Origin: a virus
Strand: one strand, 5' to 3'
DNA length: 22,975 nt
IMG/VR virus record: IMGVR_UViG_3300020084_000112
Span: 1-22,975 of that record
This document shows, piece after piece, positions 1,566 to 11,281 of this stretch (positions are counted from its first letter, which is position 1; the number at the start of each line of letters is the position of its first letter). Made by a program: the position numbers and the translations under genes. The notes below the pieces were generated by a model that was not told where the DNA came from, made no database searches, and worked only from the letters and a program-made list of their open reading frames with translations.

Positions 1566-3023
1566 TCAACGCATGGATGGATTTCTTTCCTGAGCACTCA
1601 ACGATGGATCACCATATTTATCTTCTGATCTTCTTTCTTGCCTTTGTCGTGTTTGTTGACGATAGACTGGTGACATTTTTTGTCTTTCAAGATCTGCAGC
1701 AGTTCCACTTTGTCTGGACATAATACTACGTGCTAATTTGTTACCTTTGTCAGAAAGACTTGGTAATGCTTTTTGCAACTTCAACAAAAGTTTTGTCACG
1801 GCAGCCTCATCCAATGCAGCCATCATAACTAAAGCATCCTGATTTGTGTCAACATATCCTTCCGAAATTAAATGTTCCATAACAATATCAAAGTAATCAA
1901 CTTGTTCACCTCTTACTTTTGTGTTGTACTTTTTACCTTGGAACTCAAATTCTTTTGCACCAGAAGTTCTTGCCTTTTTAAAAGCAACATCAAAGTCACC
2001 AGCTACACTACCAGTTCCAACAATTTTAGGACCAACCTTTAAACGATTTCTAACTCTACCATCCGTATCCATCGTGTTGTACTTGTTGACGCTGGATTCG
2101 GGACTGGACTTTTTTGCAGGATCTTTTACTAGTGGGGCAGCAGCACCAGCAGCAACAAGTGCAGCAGCAGCACCAGCAATCGCTCTTCTAGCTTTGTTTA
2201 AAGCATCTCCAGGAGAAGTCATTGCATTTGCTCTTGGGCGCACACCAGAACCAGGAGCAGCTTGAGCGGAAAGTCTTTGTGTACGGGCATCTCCACCTGC
2301 ACCAGTTGCTCTAATATCATACCTCATGGTAGATGGTTTTGGAGCAGAAGTTTTACCAGCTGCGGGAAGTGCCCTTGTGGTAGTTGCTGATGTTCCTGGC
2401 AGTGCTCTAGTAGAAGGAATTGAAGCGGCAACTGGTTTAGGTAGACCGTATTGCTTTTGCTTTTTACTCATAAATTGTGTCCAAGGATCAGCAGCAGCAC
2501 CTGTTACTTTTTTGGCTGCAGGAGCGGGTTTTGCTGCAGGCAATGCCTTCTGTGTTACAGCTTTTCCAATTTCTTTTTTAAATTGCATTGCTGCATACTT
2601 ACCAGGAAGTTCTGGTTGTGCTGCTGGTCTTGCAGCTCTTGCAGCTCTAATTGATGTTGATGCAGCAGCACCTTTGACAACACTTTCAGGTTTTTTACCA
2701 AGTGCTGTTCCCGCTTTCAGTCCTGCCTTTAATCTACCACCAGAACTTAAAGCATTAATAACTGCTCGTAAAGCAGCTGCTTTATTTTCTCCAAGGAAAT
2801 CTAATGACTCATTTAAATTTTCTACTTTATAATATTCTAAAAGAGCAACTACAAACTCTTCAATAAGATCTTCGTTAATTAAATATTCTGCAAACTCTTC
2901 ACACTCTTCAATCGTATCAAAACGATCCTCAACAATACACAAATTTAAAACTGAACTGTATAAGTCCTCTGTTAGATTATCTTCAGAGTTATACACACTG
3001 TAATATGCTTCTACGAGATTCAT
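1566..3023 (-). CDS. Ala-rich virion-like protein with terminal acidic modules
   Basis: This 485-residue protein has three parts. An acidic N-terminal helical module (about 1-95, starting MNLVEAYYSVYNSEDN) carries EECEEFAEYLINEDLIEEF. A long basic, low-complexity Ala/Pro/Lys-rich middle (about 95-310) follows. The C-terminal part contains FDVAFKKARTSGAKEFEFQG (344-363) and then GKKYNT, a pattern I associate with internal or minor virion proteins of many tailed phages. A second acidic module (375-410) carries YFDIVMEHLISEGY. Cyanophages commonly encode proteins opening with a similar LVEAY motif, some found in virions; this is recalled, not searched. A perfect late element lies just upstream and a terminator downstream, so it is a single late gene, which supports a structural role. 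Short LxE/IxE sites suit the prohead protease, but none is proven. No enzyme function is suggested. Confidence 0.75.
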   Translation of the reverse strand: MNLVEAYYSVYNSEDNLTEDLYSSVLNLCIVEDRFDTIEECEEFAEYLINEDLIEEFVVALLEYYKVENLNESLDFLGENKAAALRAVINALSSGGRLKAGLKAGTALGKKPESVVKGAAASTSIRAARAARPAAQPELPGKYAAMQFKKEIGKAVTQKALPAAKPAPAAKKVTGAAADPWTQFMSKKQKQYGLPKPVAASIPSTRALPGTSATTTRALPAAGKTSAPKPSTMRYDIRATGAGGDARTQRLSAQAAPGSGVRPRANAMTSPGDALNKARRAIAGAAAALVAAGAAAPLVKDPAKKSSPESSVNKYNTMDTDGRVRNRLKVGPKIVGTGSVAGDFDVAFKKARTSGAKEFEFQGKKYNTKVRGEQVDYFDIVMEHLISEGYVDTNQDALVMMAALDEAAVTKLLLKLQKALPSLSDKGNKLARSIMSRQSGTAADLERQKMSPVYRQQTRQRQERRSEDKYGDPSLSAQERNPSMR

Positions 3024-3044
3024 TTCTACATTAAGACTTTTTTT

Positions 3045-3052
3045 TATTTATA
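3045..3052 (-). promoter_or_regulatory. Late promoter element (TATAAATA) for the Ala-rich gene
   Basis: A perfect T4-type late element TATAAATA lies on the minus strand 21 nt before the ATG at 3023. It directly follows the T-run of the upstream gene's terminator. It would be recognised by host polymerase carrying gp55, which this phage encodes at 8832-9314. Confidence 0.8.
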
Positions 3053-3075
3053 AAAAAAGAGGGGACTAGCCCCTC
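3052..3075 (-). terminator. Rho-independent terminator after the VWA gene
   Basis: On the minus strand GAGGGG, a 5-base loop, CCCCTC and a run of seven T form a clear terminator. The hairpin spans 3059-3075 and shares bases with the TGA stop of the VWA gene (3074-3076). The T-run abuts the next gene's late promoter, so transcription stops and restarts within about 30 bp. Confidence 0.85.
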
Positions 3076-5242
3076 AAGCAATCAGATCAATAAACTCATT
3101 AAGAACTTTTTTATTGAATTTTTTAGAACTCATATATTTTTTGAATGCGTTACGAATTTCAGTATTAGATGCATTGTCACTCACAACAAATGAAGTATCT
3201 GAAGAGAGTGAATTTGAAGAAAGTCCAAAGTAAGTATGATAACCTTCAGTGTGAATGGAAAAACTTCTCTGTTTCTTCCAACTATTTTGAACTTTAGTCA
3301 TTGCAGTTTGGTCATTATTAAGATAACGACGCATAAAAGTATTAGCTTCACCAGAACCAAGAACTCGCATACCAATAAAATTTACATCAGGATAGCGATT
3401 ACGAAGATATCGAAGAAGAATATCAGTAAAGCTAGTGTGAACATCGATGTTTGGATTTGCTGCATACACATGCCCAGTTTTTCGATCTCGAAGAAAACAC
3501 TTTTTAGGATTGAATGTACGAACCCCAACATACTCATTGAACTCAGTGCGACTAATGTTAACACAATAGTTTAAGGGACATGCTTCACCATCAGTGAGCA
3601 CAAGAGTGTGAACTTTTTGAAGATTATTTTCTTTTTGAAACTGAGGAATCAGTTGATTCAAAACAATCAAAGATTCATTCAAAGGAGTTCCAGACAAGCA
3701 CAGACGACCTGGAACGCCATAAGTATTGTGCCAATAACGATTTTGAAGTTGACGAACAATACGATAAATTGAAAGCATTTGTTCATTCAATTCAACATTC
3801 TTGATCTTGCTGGTGAACAAATTCATCAGAGCAAAGTCAGGCTGAACATAAAGATGCCCTTGAATTTTTTTATGATGAGGGGTCGGAACATCAGATCGAT
3901 GATGCTCATTGTAAGTTACACAACGCCACTCGTTTGTGAAAGCATAAACTTCAAAAGGAATAGAAACTTTCTTACAGAACCAAATCAAGTTATAAAGTTG
4001 CTTGATAGTATCGGTAAGAACTTTATCCATAGAACCAGACCAGTCAAGAATAAAAATCAGACCATGACTCTTGCCGTCAGCAAGAGTTGTAACTTTTTTA
4101 AACAGATCTTCGTTGTACTTATAAGTATGCAGTTTAGAACAATCAAGAACTCCAGTACGAGCAGTAGAAGCACGAGCATAACTATCTGCTGCTTTCCGAC
4201 ACTCAAACTCTTTCACAAGATAGTTGACTTCTTTCTGAGCAGATTGTTTGAATTCTGCATACTCCCTATCAACATGAACAAAAGGATTGTAATCATTGCC
4301 ACTATGCCTCTCATTATGTTCCCTTTCTATTTGCCAATATTTTTGAATTACATCATGAATCTCAAAGTTAGGTGCAATCACAGTATTAAGATCTAGAGTC
4401 GGAAGTTCCGTGTAGACATTTTCATCCACCCAATTATCCTTACTAGAAAGTTCTTCAATGGCATCACGAAGACGTTGATCGGTTTTAACCTCATTGTTGT
4501 CATGTTGACCACCAATATTATCTTTTGTAATTTCTTTTTCTTGACAGTTATCTACATGCTTAGGTTGATCATCAACACCAGAATCGGATTCAACTTTTTC
4601 AATCGATTCAGATTCCGACTGTTCCATATCAACAGAACTTTCTGACTGTTGAGGTTGGTTTTCTAGGAAAATGGAAATGCTTTCACTTTCAGTTTTGGTT
4701 TCCTGAGAGAGCTTGTGCATTTCTTCTGCTGCAATCAAAACATCAGCAAAAGATTCACAGTTTTCAATAAGAGTCAGCAATTGTTTTTCAGCATCACTAA
4801 AGTTGACACTAATGAAATTTCCAATTTTATAGTAAAGGTTTACACGATCTGCAAGAGAGTAAGTATTATGATCTTCATCGCCAATTGAAAAGAAATCATC
4901 TTGATTCAGTTCTTTGTAACCATTGAACATGGTTTTAGCCAAACCAGCATAACGACGCTTCATCAATTTTTCGATGCGAGCATCTTCAACAATATTGACA
5001 TACGACTGAGGAACTTTCACAACAGTCGTCCAATCTTCATCGGGGGTATAAAGTGCATGTCCCACTTCATGCGCCACCAGCATGTCGTATACGGCGTTAG
5101 AAGCCCTTTCCCAAAGTGGAAGGGTCAGAACACGGGTGTGTACATTAAAACACGCTGTAGAAACCTTCTTGTGCTCTACAATGAGGTCTTCGGTAGCAAG
5201 CAGGCGGGCAAGCTGACCTTTGATTTCGTAGTTAACAGCCAT
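3074..5242 (-). CDS. CobT-like protein: HExxH metallopeptidase-like domain plus VWA domain
   Basis: This 722-residue protein has two recognisable domains. The N-terminal domain has HEVGH (58-62), the zinc-protease signature, followed by NIVEDARIE (83-91), whose acidic residues suit a third zinc ligand. A hydrophilic Ser/Glu/Gln-rich linker spans about 181-255. The C-terminal VWA domain (about 392-690) has a complete MIDAS metal site: DWSGS (400-404), T519 in SGTPL and D551 in LTDGEA. CobT, CbbO and NorD-type partners of MoxR ATPases have a C-terminal VWA domain, and some have a similar HExxH region. With cobS nearby, this is the likely VWA partner. Cyanophage relatives are often called peptidases. 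Whether it cleaves anything is unknown. No Shine-Dalgarno site is seen before the ATG. The gene is bounded upstream by the terminator at 5274-5297 and downstream by one at its own stop. Confidence 0.85.
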   Translation of the reverse strand: MAVNYEIKGQLARLLATEDLIVEHKKVSTACFNVHTRVLTLPLWERASNAVYDMLVAHEVGHALYTPDEDWTTVVKVPQSYVNIVEDARIEKLMKRRYAGLAKTMFNGYKELNQDDFFSIGDEDHNTYSLADRVNLYYKIGNFISVNFSDAEKQLLTLIENCESFADVLIAAEEMHKLSQETKTESESISIFLENQPQQSESSVDMEQSESESIEKVESDSGVDDQPKHVDNCQEKEITKDNIGGQHDNNEVKTDQRLRDAIEELSSKDNWVDENVYTELPTLDLNTVIAPNFEIHDVIQKYWQIEREHNERHSGNDYNPFVHVDREYAEFKQSAQKEVNYLVKEFECRKAADSYARASTARTGVLDCSKLHTYKYNEDLFKKVTTLADGKSHGLIFILDWSGSMDKVLTDTIKQLYNLIWFCKKVSIPFEVYAFTNEWRCVTYNEHHRSDVPTPHHKKIQGHLYVQPDFALMNLFTSKIKNVELNEQMLSIYRIVRQLQNRYWHNTYGVPGRLCLSGTPLNESLIVLNQLIPQFQKENNLQKVHTLVLTDGEACPLNYCVNISRTEFNEYVGVRTFNPKKCFLRDRKTGHVYAANPNIDVHTSFTDILLRYLRNRYPDVNFIGMRVLGSGEANTFMRRYLNNDQTAMTKVQNSWKKQRSFSIHTEGYHTYFGLSSNSLSSDTSFVVSDNASNTEIRNAFKKYMSSKKFNKKVLNEFIDLIA

Positions 5243-5798: not shown

Positions 5799-5820
5799 AA
5801 AACCACTGTCAGTGTTGAAT

Positions 5821-7789: not shown

Positions 7790-8832
7790 TAATCTACCTC
7801 GCAAGCTTCCTTATATATGGATTCTATGTGTTGCATAATTATCTTTTTGTTGAGTGAAATTTCACTGTCTTCAACATACTTATTTAAGATGGAAACTGTG
7901 TCTTCAATTTGAGTCAGGTCAACATCATCAACATCATTTACAGTAAAGTTCTCTACAATTTTAACCTCATGGCAGTCAGATGTCAAGAGCCTGTCTATAA
8001 ACTTGTCATACTTAACTTGACTGGTTTTCTTTTCAACAATCAGTTTAACATACTTTTCTTTACACTTGGTAAAGTTGTAAATCTGATGATTGGTATCAGA
8101 GTAATGAATCTTTTGAAATAGTTGAAATGGATTGTCAATTGTTTTTAACTTGAGAGTTTCAGTATCAAAAATATGAAACCCTCTAGAGTCATCACAATCA
8201 TTCCAATACATTTGATAAGGATTTCCAAGATAAAAAATCTTTCCGTTATTACTACGAGTATGATAGTGACCAGAAAATACTCGTTTAAATTTAGTAAAGA
8301 TTTCTGGATCTAAACCATCTTCCATTTGAACCATGCCTTTATACATGGAGAAGCCAGTAAGTTGCAGGTGACCCATAGCTACTTTTGCTTTTGATGAATT
8401 AATCAATTTCATAGTCAACTCTTGATTCTCCTCATTAATCCAAGGAATGAAGAGTACCTGAAGATCATCAAAAACTACTTCGATAGGATCTCGTATCTTA
8501 GTGATGTTGTCATATTTGTTTAACACAACATCGATTGTATTGAAGTTGTTTGTATTTTTATAATATGCTGTGTGATTACCAACAACAGTCCAAACATGTA
8601 TCTTCTTTTTTTCCAGAATATTGTAATAGTTTTTCTTTGCCCAATCCAAACTCCAGAGATCGATTACTTTACGATTATCAAAGGTATCACCAAGATCAAT
8701 AACCGTAGAGATGCCTTCGTCTTCTAAAGTTGGAAAGAAGACCTCATCATAAAATTTTTGAAAGTAATCATGATAGATCTTACTTCCTTTTTTTACACCG
8801 AAGTGTTGATCAGTAATGATAGCAATTTTCAT
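7789..8832 (-). CDS. 47: gp47, recombination endonuclease subunit (Mre11/SbcD-like)
   Basis: This 347-residue calcineurin-like phosphoesterase is the nuclease subunit of the gp46/47 complex. All metal-binding motifs are present: D8-x-H10 (ITDQHFG), GD (48-49) in DLGDTFDNR, GNH (85-87), GHL (154-156) and GHYH (188-191). The length matches T4 gp47 (about 339). Its start overlaps the gp55 stop by one base (TGATG) and its stop overlaps the DUF3110 start (TAATG), so it sits in a tightly coupled operon gp55-gp47-DUF3110-gp46. It should be made before or with replication. Confidence 0.95.
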   Translation of the reverse strand: MKIAIITDQHFGVKKGSKIYHDYFQKFYDEVFFPTLEDEGISTVIDLGDTFDNRKVIDLWSLDWAKKNYYNILEKKKIHVWTVVGNHTAYYKNTNNFNTIDVVLNKYDNITKIRDPIEVVFDDLQVLFIPWINEENQELTMKLINSSKAKVAMGHLQLTGFSMYKGMVQMEDGLDPEIFTKFKRVFSGHYHTRSNNGKIFYLGNPYQMYWNDCDDSRGFHIFDTETLKLKTIDNPFQLFQKIHYSDTNHQIYNFTKCKEKYVKLIVEKKTSQVKYDKFIDRLLTSDCHEVKIVENFTVNDVDDVDLTQIEDTVSILNKYVEDSEISLNKKIIMQHIESIYKEACEVD

Positions 8833-9314
8833 CAGTTGTGAATCATCCTGTAGTGAATTGCATTTTTGATTCCATTGTACTCAGAATCAGATCCATCCAG
8901 AATGTTACCATCAGAAACGAAGACTTCATCAAAGTTAGACTGTTCAAGAATTTTACTCTTAATGTCAAGTTGTTTTTTCTCCTTTTGAATACGGCGAAGA
9001 AAGGCATAGTAAATAATTTGTGTAAAGTAGGCAAAAGGATTTCCACGATTAATATCGAAGTTGTCAATATATTGTACACAATTTTCTACGCCATCGCAAA
9101 TCATATCCTCACGGAACATGTAGTTGACAAAATTTGGTTTGTATGATAAGTGTGTGGCAATCTTTAAAAAACATTCACCAATGTATCGTGGAATACATGG
9201 TCTTGGATTTCCTGCTTCCTTTGCCTGGTTTACCATGTAACGGTAATCGCTTAAAGCTTGGAGAAACTCCTTATTATTCACGTAATGATCTGATCTGGAT
9301 CTTCCCTTGGACAT
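8832..9314 (-). CDS. 55: gp55, late-transcription sigma factor
   Basis: This is a small sigma70-like factor that directs host RNA polymerase to late TATAAATA promoters, helped in T4 by gp33 and the gp45 clamp. It has 160 residues against about 185 in T4. The sigma region 2-like stretch is clear: FREDMICDGVENCVQYIDNF followed by a segment with NPFAYFTQIIYYAFLRRIQKEKK (about 68-117), which covers core binding and -10 recognition. As in T4 gp55, no sigma region 4 is present. The start has a good ribosome site (GAGGT, 5 nt spacer). A sigma70-type promoter with an extended -10 lies upstream, so the gene can be expressed by unmodified host polymerase. The late elements elsewhere in this window are its expected targets. 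Confidence 0.92.
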   Translation of the reverse strand: MSKGRSRSDHYVNNKEFLQALSDYRYMVNQAKEAGNPRPCIPRYIGECFLKIATHLSYKPNFVNYMFREDMICDGVENCVQYIDNFDINRGNPFAYFTQIIYYAFLRRIQKEKKQLDIKSKILEQSNFDEVFVSDGNILDGSDSEYNGIKNAIHYRMIHN

Positions 9315-9336
9315 GGTTTACCTCTTATATGTTGCC

Positions 9337-9365
9337 ATTTTAGCATACTCAGAAGATATTTGCAA
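9337..9365 (-). promoter_or_regulatory. Sigma70-type promoter with extended -10 for the gp55 operon
   Basis: On the minus strand TTGCAA (9360-9365) and TAAAAT (9337-9342) are 17 bp apart, and TGC precedes the -10, forming an extended -10. The -10 matches 5/6 and the -35 4/6. Transcription would start near 9330, about 16 nt before the gp55 ATG at 9314 and including its GAGGT site. It is a plausible early or middle promoter for gp55-gp47-DUF3110-gp46. Confidence 0.6.
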
Positions 9366-9372
9366 GAGGTAC

Positions 9373-9401
9373 TTGACAAGACTACTGAAAACTGCTATAA
9401 T
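9373..9401 (+). promoter_or_regulatory. Perfect consensus sigma70 promoter on the plus strand (antisense)
   Basis: TTGACA (9373-9378), exactly 17 bp, then TATAAT (9396-9401) preceded by TGC, so it also has an extended -10. This is a 12/12 match at ideal spacing. It points rightward, opposite to every gene in the window, from the gap between gp55 and the Sm-like gene. Transcription would start near 9408 and run antisense through the Sm-like gene (9433-9822) and towards uvsW. No plus-strand gene or clear terminator was found downstream. Confidence 0.7.
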
Positions 9402-9432
9402 AACTCTGTCAGGGTTGATAAAAATATATCTA

Positions 9433-9822
9433 TTAATTATTAGAAGATTTATAGAGTTTTTCTAAGTCTTTTCTGAAGTCCTCTATAGTAGATATGTAAC
9501 CCATTTTTCTATCAGGTTTTATTTTATTAGAACCTATAGAAACTTCTTTAACATATTCATTATAAATTTTTATTATTTTATTACTTGTAACTTCAGTTAT
9601 TGTTATTACTTTATCCATATCAATAAAGTATAAACTATCATTATCATACTTAATCCAGGGTTCTACTTTGATGATAGTTCCCATGGGTGTTTCTTGTTCC
9701 TTCATAGTAATTGGATGATCTAAAGCTAATATAATTCTATCTTTCTCTGGACATGCGGATACCATTGACATGATTTCTTCACCAGAAATTAATTTGATTA
9801 CAGCTAAGAATTCATCTTCCAT
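9433..9822 (-). CDS. Small Sm-like (LSm/Hfq-type fold) protein, tentative
   Basis: This 129-residue protein begins MEDEFLAVIKLISGEEIMSM. The pattern of a short strand, KLISGEEI, then a strand and IILALDHPITMKEQ resembles the start of an Sm fold (bent barrel with G-x-x-[IL] and D/N near the turn). Marine phages carry similar small proteins that I recall being called Sm-like; no search was done. The C-terminal third (about 95-129) is charged and helical. Its start overlaps the end of uvsW by 11 bp, so the two are co-translated, and it is the last gene before the antisense promoter. A role in RNA binding is only inferred from the fold guess. Less probable is an unrelated SH3-like barrel. Confidence 0.6.
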   Translation of the reverse strand: MEDEFLAVIKLISGEEIMSMVSACPEKDRIILALDHPITMKEQETPMGTIIKVEPWIKYDNDSLYFIDMDKVITITEVTSNKIIKIYNEYVKEVSIGSNKIKPDRKMGYISTIEDFRKDLEKLYKSSNN

Positions 9823-11281
9823 TTGTTCTCATGTTAATAGGTACAATTTCATAATTAAATGATTCTTCATTGTAAATTTTAATTCTATCCATAAGATGAT
9901 TTAAAGTGTAATTTTTGATAGTCTTTGTTGAGATGTCATCAGAGATATCATATAATACAGCTTTGTTTTTATCAGTACTTTTTCTTAATACTCTTCCTAT
10001 TGATTGTAAATTACGAATCCTAGATTTAGATGGAGATGCAAATATTACGTTGTGTAATTTTTTAATGTTAATGCCTGTACTAAAAGTTCCATAGGATGCT
10101 ACAATTATAGCATTGCTTTCTTGCTCAGTAATCTTACGAACCTCCTCACGTTCATCGACATCAACACCACCATGAACAAAAAACACTTTTCTATTCTGTG
10201 TACTACTATTTATGATGTCGAAAATTACCTTTCCATGAGTCTCTACTCTACTATAAAGAATCAATGTATTTCCTTTAAGATCTAAAGATAAATTTTTAAT
10301 AAAATTGTTTCTTTTATCATGACCAATTAAATATTGTATTTCTTCCTCATATGTGTTAAACTTGTGTGAATCGTGTTTGAGTAAAAGAATTTTAATGTCT
10401 AGTTTTGATACGTGCCCTTTATCAATAAGTTCTTTTGTTTTTGTTACATTGTATGATGGTCCAAACAATCCTTCAAGAATCCACTTATGAGTTTGAGTTC
10501 CATCTAGAGTGCCAGTAAATCCAAAACGATACTTACAATCAAGCAATTTTGTCATAATATCAACTAGAGACTTTGATTTAAACAAGTGTGCCTCATCTCC
10601 AACTACAACATCAAAATCAGAATACCAATTTTTCTCTAACTTGTAGATAGATTGCCAAGTTGTTATTGTTACGGGAGATTTATTGGTCTTTTCCTTACCT
10701 GAGTAAATTCTATGGCAGAAGTGTTCAGCATCCCAACCATAATCTTGAAAGTCCTTGAACATTTGTTCAACCAAAGATGTGGTAGGAACTACGATTAAAA
10801 TTTTAAATCCTCTTTCAACATAGTATCTTACAACGCTATAAATCATCAAAGATTTTCCAGATGCCGTTGGTGAAATCAATAACTTACGATTATATTTTAA
10901 GGCACTATACACACCATCAATTTGATAATCTCTTGGTGTATGTTTTGAGATCTTCTTCATATAATCAGCAACACCTTCCAATGAAATCATGTCATTGACT
11001 TCAAATGGAACGCCATAAAATTTACTATCACGAAACTGATAGGTATAATTATGTTGATCGCAGAATGCAATTACCTTGTCAAGAAGACCAACATAAATTT
11101 CTCCAGTATGTGTTGAGAATAGACGAATTTTTCCATCCCAATATCTTTTACGATACTGTGGCATGAACTTGGCATTATGCACTTCAAATGTAAATCTATC
11201 TGATAACTCTTGAAAAACGTGTGGTTCAGATTCAATACGCAGAAATACTTCGTTCTTTTTTGAAATGATTAAATGACTCAT
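9812..11281 (-). CDS. uvsW: UvsW, recombination/replication SF2 helicase
   Basis: UvsW unwinds R-loops and branched DNA, switching replication from origin- to recombination-dependent mode. This 489-residue copy is close to T4 UvsW (about 500). It has the N-terminal substrate-binding domain (FMPQYRKRYWDGKIRLF, about 39-55), Walker A SPTASGKS (137-144), a VVGDEAH box (DEAH 229-232), motif III-like GFTGTL (254-259) and motif VI QSIGRVLRKS (426-435). It overlaps uvsY by one base (TAATG) and the Sm-like gene by 11 bp. In T4 uvsW is late-expressed; here it lies in the same run as gp3 and uvsY. Confidence 0.93.
   Translation of the reverse strand: MSHLIISKKNEVFLRIESEPHVFQELSDRFTFEVHNAKFMPQYRKRYWDGKIRLFSTHTGEIYVGLLDKVIAFCDQHNYTYQFRDSKFYGVPFEVNDMISLEGVADYMKKISKHTPRDYQIDGVYSALKYNRKLLISPTASGKSLMIYSVVRYYVERGFKILIVVPTTSLVEQMFKDFQDYGWDAEHFCHRIYSGKEKTNKSPVTITTWQSIYKLEKNWYSDFDVVVGDEAHLFKSKSLVDIMTKLLDCKYRFGFTGTLDGTQTHKWILEGLFGPSYNVTKTKELIDKGHVSKLDIKILLLKHDSHKFNTYEEEIQYLIGHDKRNNFIKNLSLDLKGNTLILYSRVETHGKVIFDIINSSTQNRKVFFVHGGVDVDEREEVRKITEQESNAIIVASYGTFSTGINIKKLHNVIFASPSKSRIRNLQSIGRVLRKSTDKNKAVLYDISDDISTKTIKNYTLNHLMDRIKIYNEESFNYEIVPINMRTNGR

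Follow-up and report, generated by a model that had tools for sequence, protein, structure and literature searches.

Cyanophages almost always carry, in the short gap between gp55 and the Sm-like gene, a near-consensus promoter that points away from gp55 and which, judged by its conservation, looks like an ancient and undescribed control element and not like a chance promoter. We favour, at a probability of roughly 0.42, a reading in which this gap would act as a bidirectional promoter under control at the start site, with competition between the two promoters setting the timing of gp55. Cyanophages are devoid of MotA and AsiA, and how they time the passage from early to late transcription is an open question (PMC2984593). 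If the favoured reading is true, a near-universal promoter competing with the promoter of the late sigma factor would provide a concrete control point, with a start-site element common to a few early promoters.

The antisense promoter and its conservation beside gp55

All coordinates refer to the window, i.e., the whole stretch of 22,975 nucleotides analysed here (Table 1). A previous sequence-only reading of this DNA had placed two divergent promoters with -35 boxes 7 bp apart into the 118-bp gap between gp55 and the Sm-like gene (9315–9432), and both are indeed found there. The rightward, antisense promoter is, as had been claimed, a full consensus match with an extended -10 that outscores the gp55 promoter of the window, and it falls within the sigma70 type, i.e., near-consensus -35 and -10 boxes at a distance of 16–18 bp. 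Judging from this type, an early timing of the promoter appears plausible. The label "Sm-like" was taken from annotations of relatives.

Table 1. Features in and around the gp55/Sm-like gap of the window.
Feature	Position	Strand	Details
gp55, late-transcription sigma factor	8832–9314	-	PHROG 234, E 2e-61
Divergent gp55 promoter	9337–9365	-	TTGCAA 9365–9360, 17 bp, TAAAAT 9342–9337; 9/12
Antisense promoter, whole	9373–9401	+	sigma70-type, 17-bp spacer, 12/12
-35 box of antisense promoter	9373–9378	+	TTGACA; palindromic with its flanks (CTTGACAAG)
Extended -10 of antisense promoter	9393–9401	+	TGC TATAAT; TG 9393–9394, TATAAT 9396–9401
Start-site inverted repeat	9402–9416	+	AACTCT-GTC-AGGGTT (AACTCTGTCAGGGTT); from the -10 edge across the predicted start; conserved, arms covary
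Antisense transcript, predicted first part before the Sm-like gene	9408–9433	+	
Sm-like protein gene	9433–9822	-	PHROG 471 (annotation "methylamine utilization"); lies opposite the predicted transcript
uvsW helicase gene	9812–11281	-	next antisense target

Conservation was assessed in an unbiased set of 309 distinct gaps, whose loci were collected by similarity to five gp55 proteins and not by motif; loci selected by the motif were excluded from the frequency estimate, which avoids circularity. An antisense promoter scoring at least 10/12 is present in 308 of these gaps, compared to 27 of 309 shuffled copies of the same DNA, with many contigs stemming from related phages, so that the gaps do not represent 309 independent events. 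In the direction of gp55, 288 of the 309 gaps feature a promoter of at least 10/12, and the conservation of both boxes among relatives, which had been put forward for checking, thus holds up. Within the window, the exact arrangement TTGACA-N15..19-TATAAT occurs a single time, namely as the antisense promoter, against a mean expectation of 0.03 per shuffled window. On the grounds of this expectation and the conservation, a chance promoter was rejected, in line with the earlier statement that so perfect a promoter rarely arises by chance.

With the gap sequence as query, the same position was retrieved in the Synechococcus phages DSL-LC03, DSL-LC02, S-CAM3, and Syn9, whereas the matches in S-H35 and S-MbCM6 lie at other positions. 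According to the logo and information profile, the conserved part extends from -36 to about +16 and includes a C before TTGACA, AAAT in the spacer and a G before the -10; past about +16, no clear conservation was detected either in the profile or at synonymous sites of the Sm-like gene. None of the papers covered by a literature search describes this promoter. The Syn9 transcriptome (Doron et al. 2016) may list an antisense start here already, which constitutes the main risk to novelty.

No plus-strand ORF of at least 40 aa starts between 9408 and 9915, in agreement with the claimed absence of a plus-strand gene downstream, and a transcript, if made, would inevitably run antisense to both the Sm-like gene and uvsW, as had also been stated, since the two genes lie on the minus strand. 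Alternatively, the promoter might drive a so far unrecognised small RNA or peptide that begins near 9408, and in Sinorhizobium phage phiM7 the small annotated ORF gp36 does follow the equivalent promoter. We consider this quite improbable, given the missing ORF, the absence of any Rfam match above gathering score in the window, the absence of a predicted plus-strand terminator-like site downstream before 13014, and the lack of clear conservation past about +16. The small RNA gene proposed in the sequence-only reading is, consequently, weakly disfavoured. tRNAs were not found in the window either.

The lack of a predicted terminator before 13014 would be compatible with cis-antisense control, where a strong early transcript collides or pairs with the mRNA of the Sm-like gene and uvsW and thereby keeps uvsW down until late. 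The downstream genes are all antisense, and with CfrI over psbA an antisense RNA has been proven in the cyanophage S-PM2 (PMC5931967, PMC2984593). However, the RNA past the start region shows no special conservation: in four clades, the final 12 codons of the Sm-like gene differed at synonymous sites only slightly less than the remaining codons, and the sequence of an antisense RNA therefore seems to be of little importance. Cis-antisense control, which would moreover leave unexplained both the dyad at the start site and the sense-oriented copies before early genes described below, appears unlikely to us. The promoter may also serve as a roadblock between the late and early blocks, as had been suggested before.

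A shared -35 box and an inverted repeat at the start site

Both promoters score in 272 gaps. In 228 of these, the gp55 and the antisense promoter have one palindromic -35 box (CTTGACAAG) in common, i.e., they share core elements for predicted starts in opposite directions, like a bidirectional promoter, and in 268 of the 272 the two boxes lie within 12 bp of each other. The window itself is a variant with a separate -35 for gp55; the 7-bp separation noted earlier therefore stands for the window, but as a feature of its lineage only and not as the general layout. The sharing of one box, like the start-site repeat and the further promoter copies described below, had not been noticed in the sequence-only reading. 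Read toward gp55, the common box is TTGTCA, complementary to TGACAA of the antisense -35, and the antisense direction reads the perfect TTGACA, so that the better -35 belongs to the antisense promoter and the poorer one to gp55. The A completing the palindrome after TTGACA was found in 279 of 308 gap copies vs. 19 of 32 copies elsewhere (Fisher p 1.6e-5), which is what one would predict for a box used in both orientations.

In bacteria, symmetrical promoters commonly give rise to divergent transcription (PMC12825309, PMC10268837), which would fit a chance consensus or a functionless by-product of the symmetry of the gp55 promoter. This explanation is nevertheless strongly disfavoured and, by our estimate, highly improbable: TTGACA, spacer, -10 and dyad are conserved over the 309 gaps and in phages of proteobacteria, and it is the antisense direction that has the better -35.

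One shared palindromic -35 implies that two polymerases should not be able to bind at once. The two promoters lie so close that the polymerase footprints would overlap, which according to the favoured model of promoter competition results in mutual exclusion; going by known footprints, this overlap would persist in the window despite its separate boxes. Host RNA polymerase would early on prefer the antisense promoter with its perfect box, and the firing of this promoter would hold gp55 down and drive antisense transcription across the Sm-like gene and uvsW. At a later stage, a factor at the repeat, e.g., a bound phage regulator or an initiation-stalling fold of the non-template strand, could change the antisense output and thereby free the shared -35 for gp55. 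A few early-gene promoters of the same genomes would be linked to this switch through their own copies of the repeat. Against a gp55 switch, the early-gene copies are not beside gp55, which means that the dyad must serve more than this one gene, and the window's own -35 is not shared.

The inverted repeat straddles the predicted start, the G at 9408, which was placed by the usual spacing of 7 nt after the -10 and is the G of a conserved TGT kept in the loop across relatives; in Syn9, the corresponding G of the dyad lies at about position 123698 on the minus strand. Its variants in relatives include AACCTTTGTGGAGGTT, ACCTTTGTTAGGGTT, AACTCTGTAGGAGTT, CACCTTTGTGGTGG, and AGGTTTGTCTCC, among others. 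Pairing is lost when the left arms of 170 unique sequences are interchanged (z -9.6, not corrected for phylogeny), and a stem of at least 5 can form at 68% of the gap starts, whereas the remaining strong promoters of these genomes reach 16% and shuffled sequences 23%; a minority of gap sequences do not pair. Pairing is stronger on the non-template than on the template strand, and a hairpin of the minus-strand RNA was rejected for this reason. Barring an unusual start, an ordinary 5'-terminal RNA hairpin was likewise dismissed, since the left arm lies upstream of a normally spaced start and hence would not be transcribed. Little folding energy was found at the start of gp55, which leaves the dyad on one arm of the putative bidirectional unit only.

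The arms undergo base swaps (AACC..GGTT, AGG..CCG, CAGGA..TCCTG) and the repeats range from 13 to 17 nt in length, which is unusual for a fixed operator. Compared with a repressor operator of fixed half-site and spacing, the repeats are concordant within most genomes, whereas the arms and the length of the loop differ considerably from phage to phage and also within the genome G003, with ACC..AGG in the gap and AGG..CCG outside it. The agreement within genomes would favour an operator, while the freedom with which arms and loop vary would speak for a folded non-template strand; the arm difference in G003 fits recognition of a structure better than that of a sequence.

Further copies in phages and host mobile elements

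Apart from the gp55 gap, one to three extra copies of promoter plus repeat were found in each of 12 out of 21 cyanophage records, some of which are fragments. These copies mostly precede early genes in sense orientation; in Syn9, 2 of 30 promoters scoring at least 11/12 carry the start-site repeat. The dyad variants agree within genomes: the copies of S-SKS1 are identical over 21 nt, both copies of Syn1 read GTAAGGGTT, both repeats of S-PM2 are 16-mers and both copies of Bellamy have a 16-bp spacer. Overall, the edit distance of a dyad is 2.8 to its own genome vs. 5.1 to others (permutation p 5e-5; phylogeny not controlled), which would fit a trans-acting factor, with gene conversion or shared descent as further possible causes. 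In Synechococcus phage ACG-2014f, all three copies have the -35 TTGCCA instead of TTGACA, as if variants change together within a genome. The window features a near-copy of the repeat as well (ACCACTGTCAGTGTT, 5802–5816, in a short gap beside a gp46-like gene), with no strong plus-strand promoter listed ahead of it.

A candidate for a regulator at the repeat is the small PHROG 661 protein, which resembles the AbrB/MazE fold (Pfam MazE just under the cut-off) and corresponds to gp92 of Syn9 (53843–54016). Its gene lies within the gene run downstream of the second promoter copy in Syn9 (around 52770), S-H35, and S-MbCM6; the protein was not convincingly detected in every genome checked.

Moreover, the design recurs in T4 relatives infecting proteobacteria, with repeat arms unrelated to those of cyanophages. 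Stenotrophomonas phage DLP6 features a single copy, TTTACA-17-TATAAT followed by TCAGGTGTCGCCTGA, and phiM7 has TTGACA-16-TATAAT followed by CAGGAATGTCCTG; in either phage, the promoter is located in the gap that precedes gp55 and has the antisense orientation. In Methylophilales phage Melnitz-3 the design is kept only in part, and in KVP40 and Ps15 the gap measures 8 bp and lacks such a promoter. The matching design in Stenotrophomonas and Sinorhizobium phages suggests great age. It is conceivable, albeit with a rather low chance, that the repeat works as a structure, in which the -10-anchored non-template strand would fold into a TGT-loop hairpin on opening and control polymerase escape or seed an R-loop, and that it has served to set the late-sigma switch from the common ancestor of the T4-superfamily phages of cyanobacteria and proteobacteria onward.

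With regard to the hosts, a 25-nt pattern had no match in 84,980 species, and a looser pattern gave 52 matches, of which three continue into GGGTT (two in Synechococcus mobile-element contexts and one on a small contig). Mimicry of a chromosomal host promoter was rejected on the basis of these searches. A contig of Synechococcus sp. AG-670-B23 carries a cyanophage-type promoter with AACTCTGTCAGGGTTGATAGGGA (approximately 3020–3056, plus strand) in an apparent integrated mobile element with a tyrosine integrase, a small excisionase-like ORF and tRNA-Ser, which may be a phage satellite using a phage promoter. The Synechococcus sp. UW140 MAG contains a host contig with promoter and start repeat (approximately 3408–3444, plus strand) upstream of an ORF of 215 aa without Pfam or PHROG match and with a serine recombinase nearby. 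Such elements may be tapping into the gp55 control point.

A possible replication origin and comparison with known systems

A T4 oriF-like origin has to be considered a serious rival of promoter competition, even if we rate it as improbable. Here, a gene-less promoter as in T4 oriF/oriG would yield a hybridised transcript that primes the leading strand, and the repeat would fold in the displaced non-template strand and hold the bubble. T4 origins need a promoter and an A+T-rich downstream element, oriE uses an early-type promoter, and UvsW, in the window encoded next door, unwinds the R-loops of T4 origins (PMC3016281). Besides the promoter, DNA that looks A+T-rich by inspection follows the start in the window. 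The better pairing of the non-template strand and the purine-rich initial transcript also fit an R-loop. phiM7 (KR052480) has a second promoter copy (159351–159369, minus strand), identical in the repeat and nearly identical over 60 nt, in a gene-free gap of about 650 bp, where it faces away from the neighbouring genes as an origin might. However, most further copies in cyanophages precede ordinary early genes, and no GC-skew step was seen at the gap in 14 genomes, the latter being not decisive.

In comparison to known systems, the phage unit resembles the bidirectional, pseudo-symmetrical promoters of E. coli and Salmonella (PMC12825309, PMC10268837), which consist of opposed promoters formed by one symmetrical element, where binding in one orientation blocks the other. 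It differs from these in sharing the -35, in occurring at one locus across a whole phage lineage and in having the start-site inverted repeat on one arm only. With T4 oriF (uvsY) and oriG (PMC3016281), it has in common a promoter near recombination genes of a T4-type genome; the phage unit has a sigma70-type -35 instead of a MotA box and adds the start-site repeat. CfrI of S-PM2 is a further case of antisense transcription, here predicted, in a cyanomyovirus, but its locus comprises psbA and a homing endonuclease gene and apparently has no relation to the promoter in the gp55 gap. Finally, the predicted early promoters of T4-like cyanophages (PMC3037559) are also of the TTGACA/TATAAT type that host polymerase can read, whereas the start-site repeat marks only a small subset of them.
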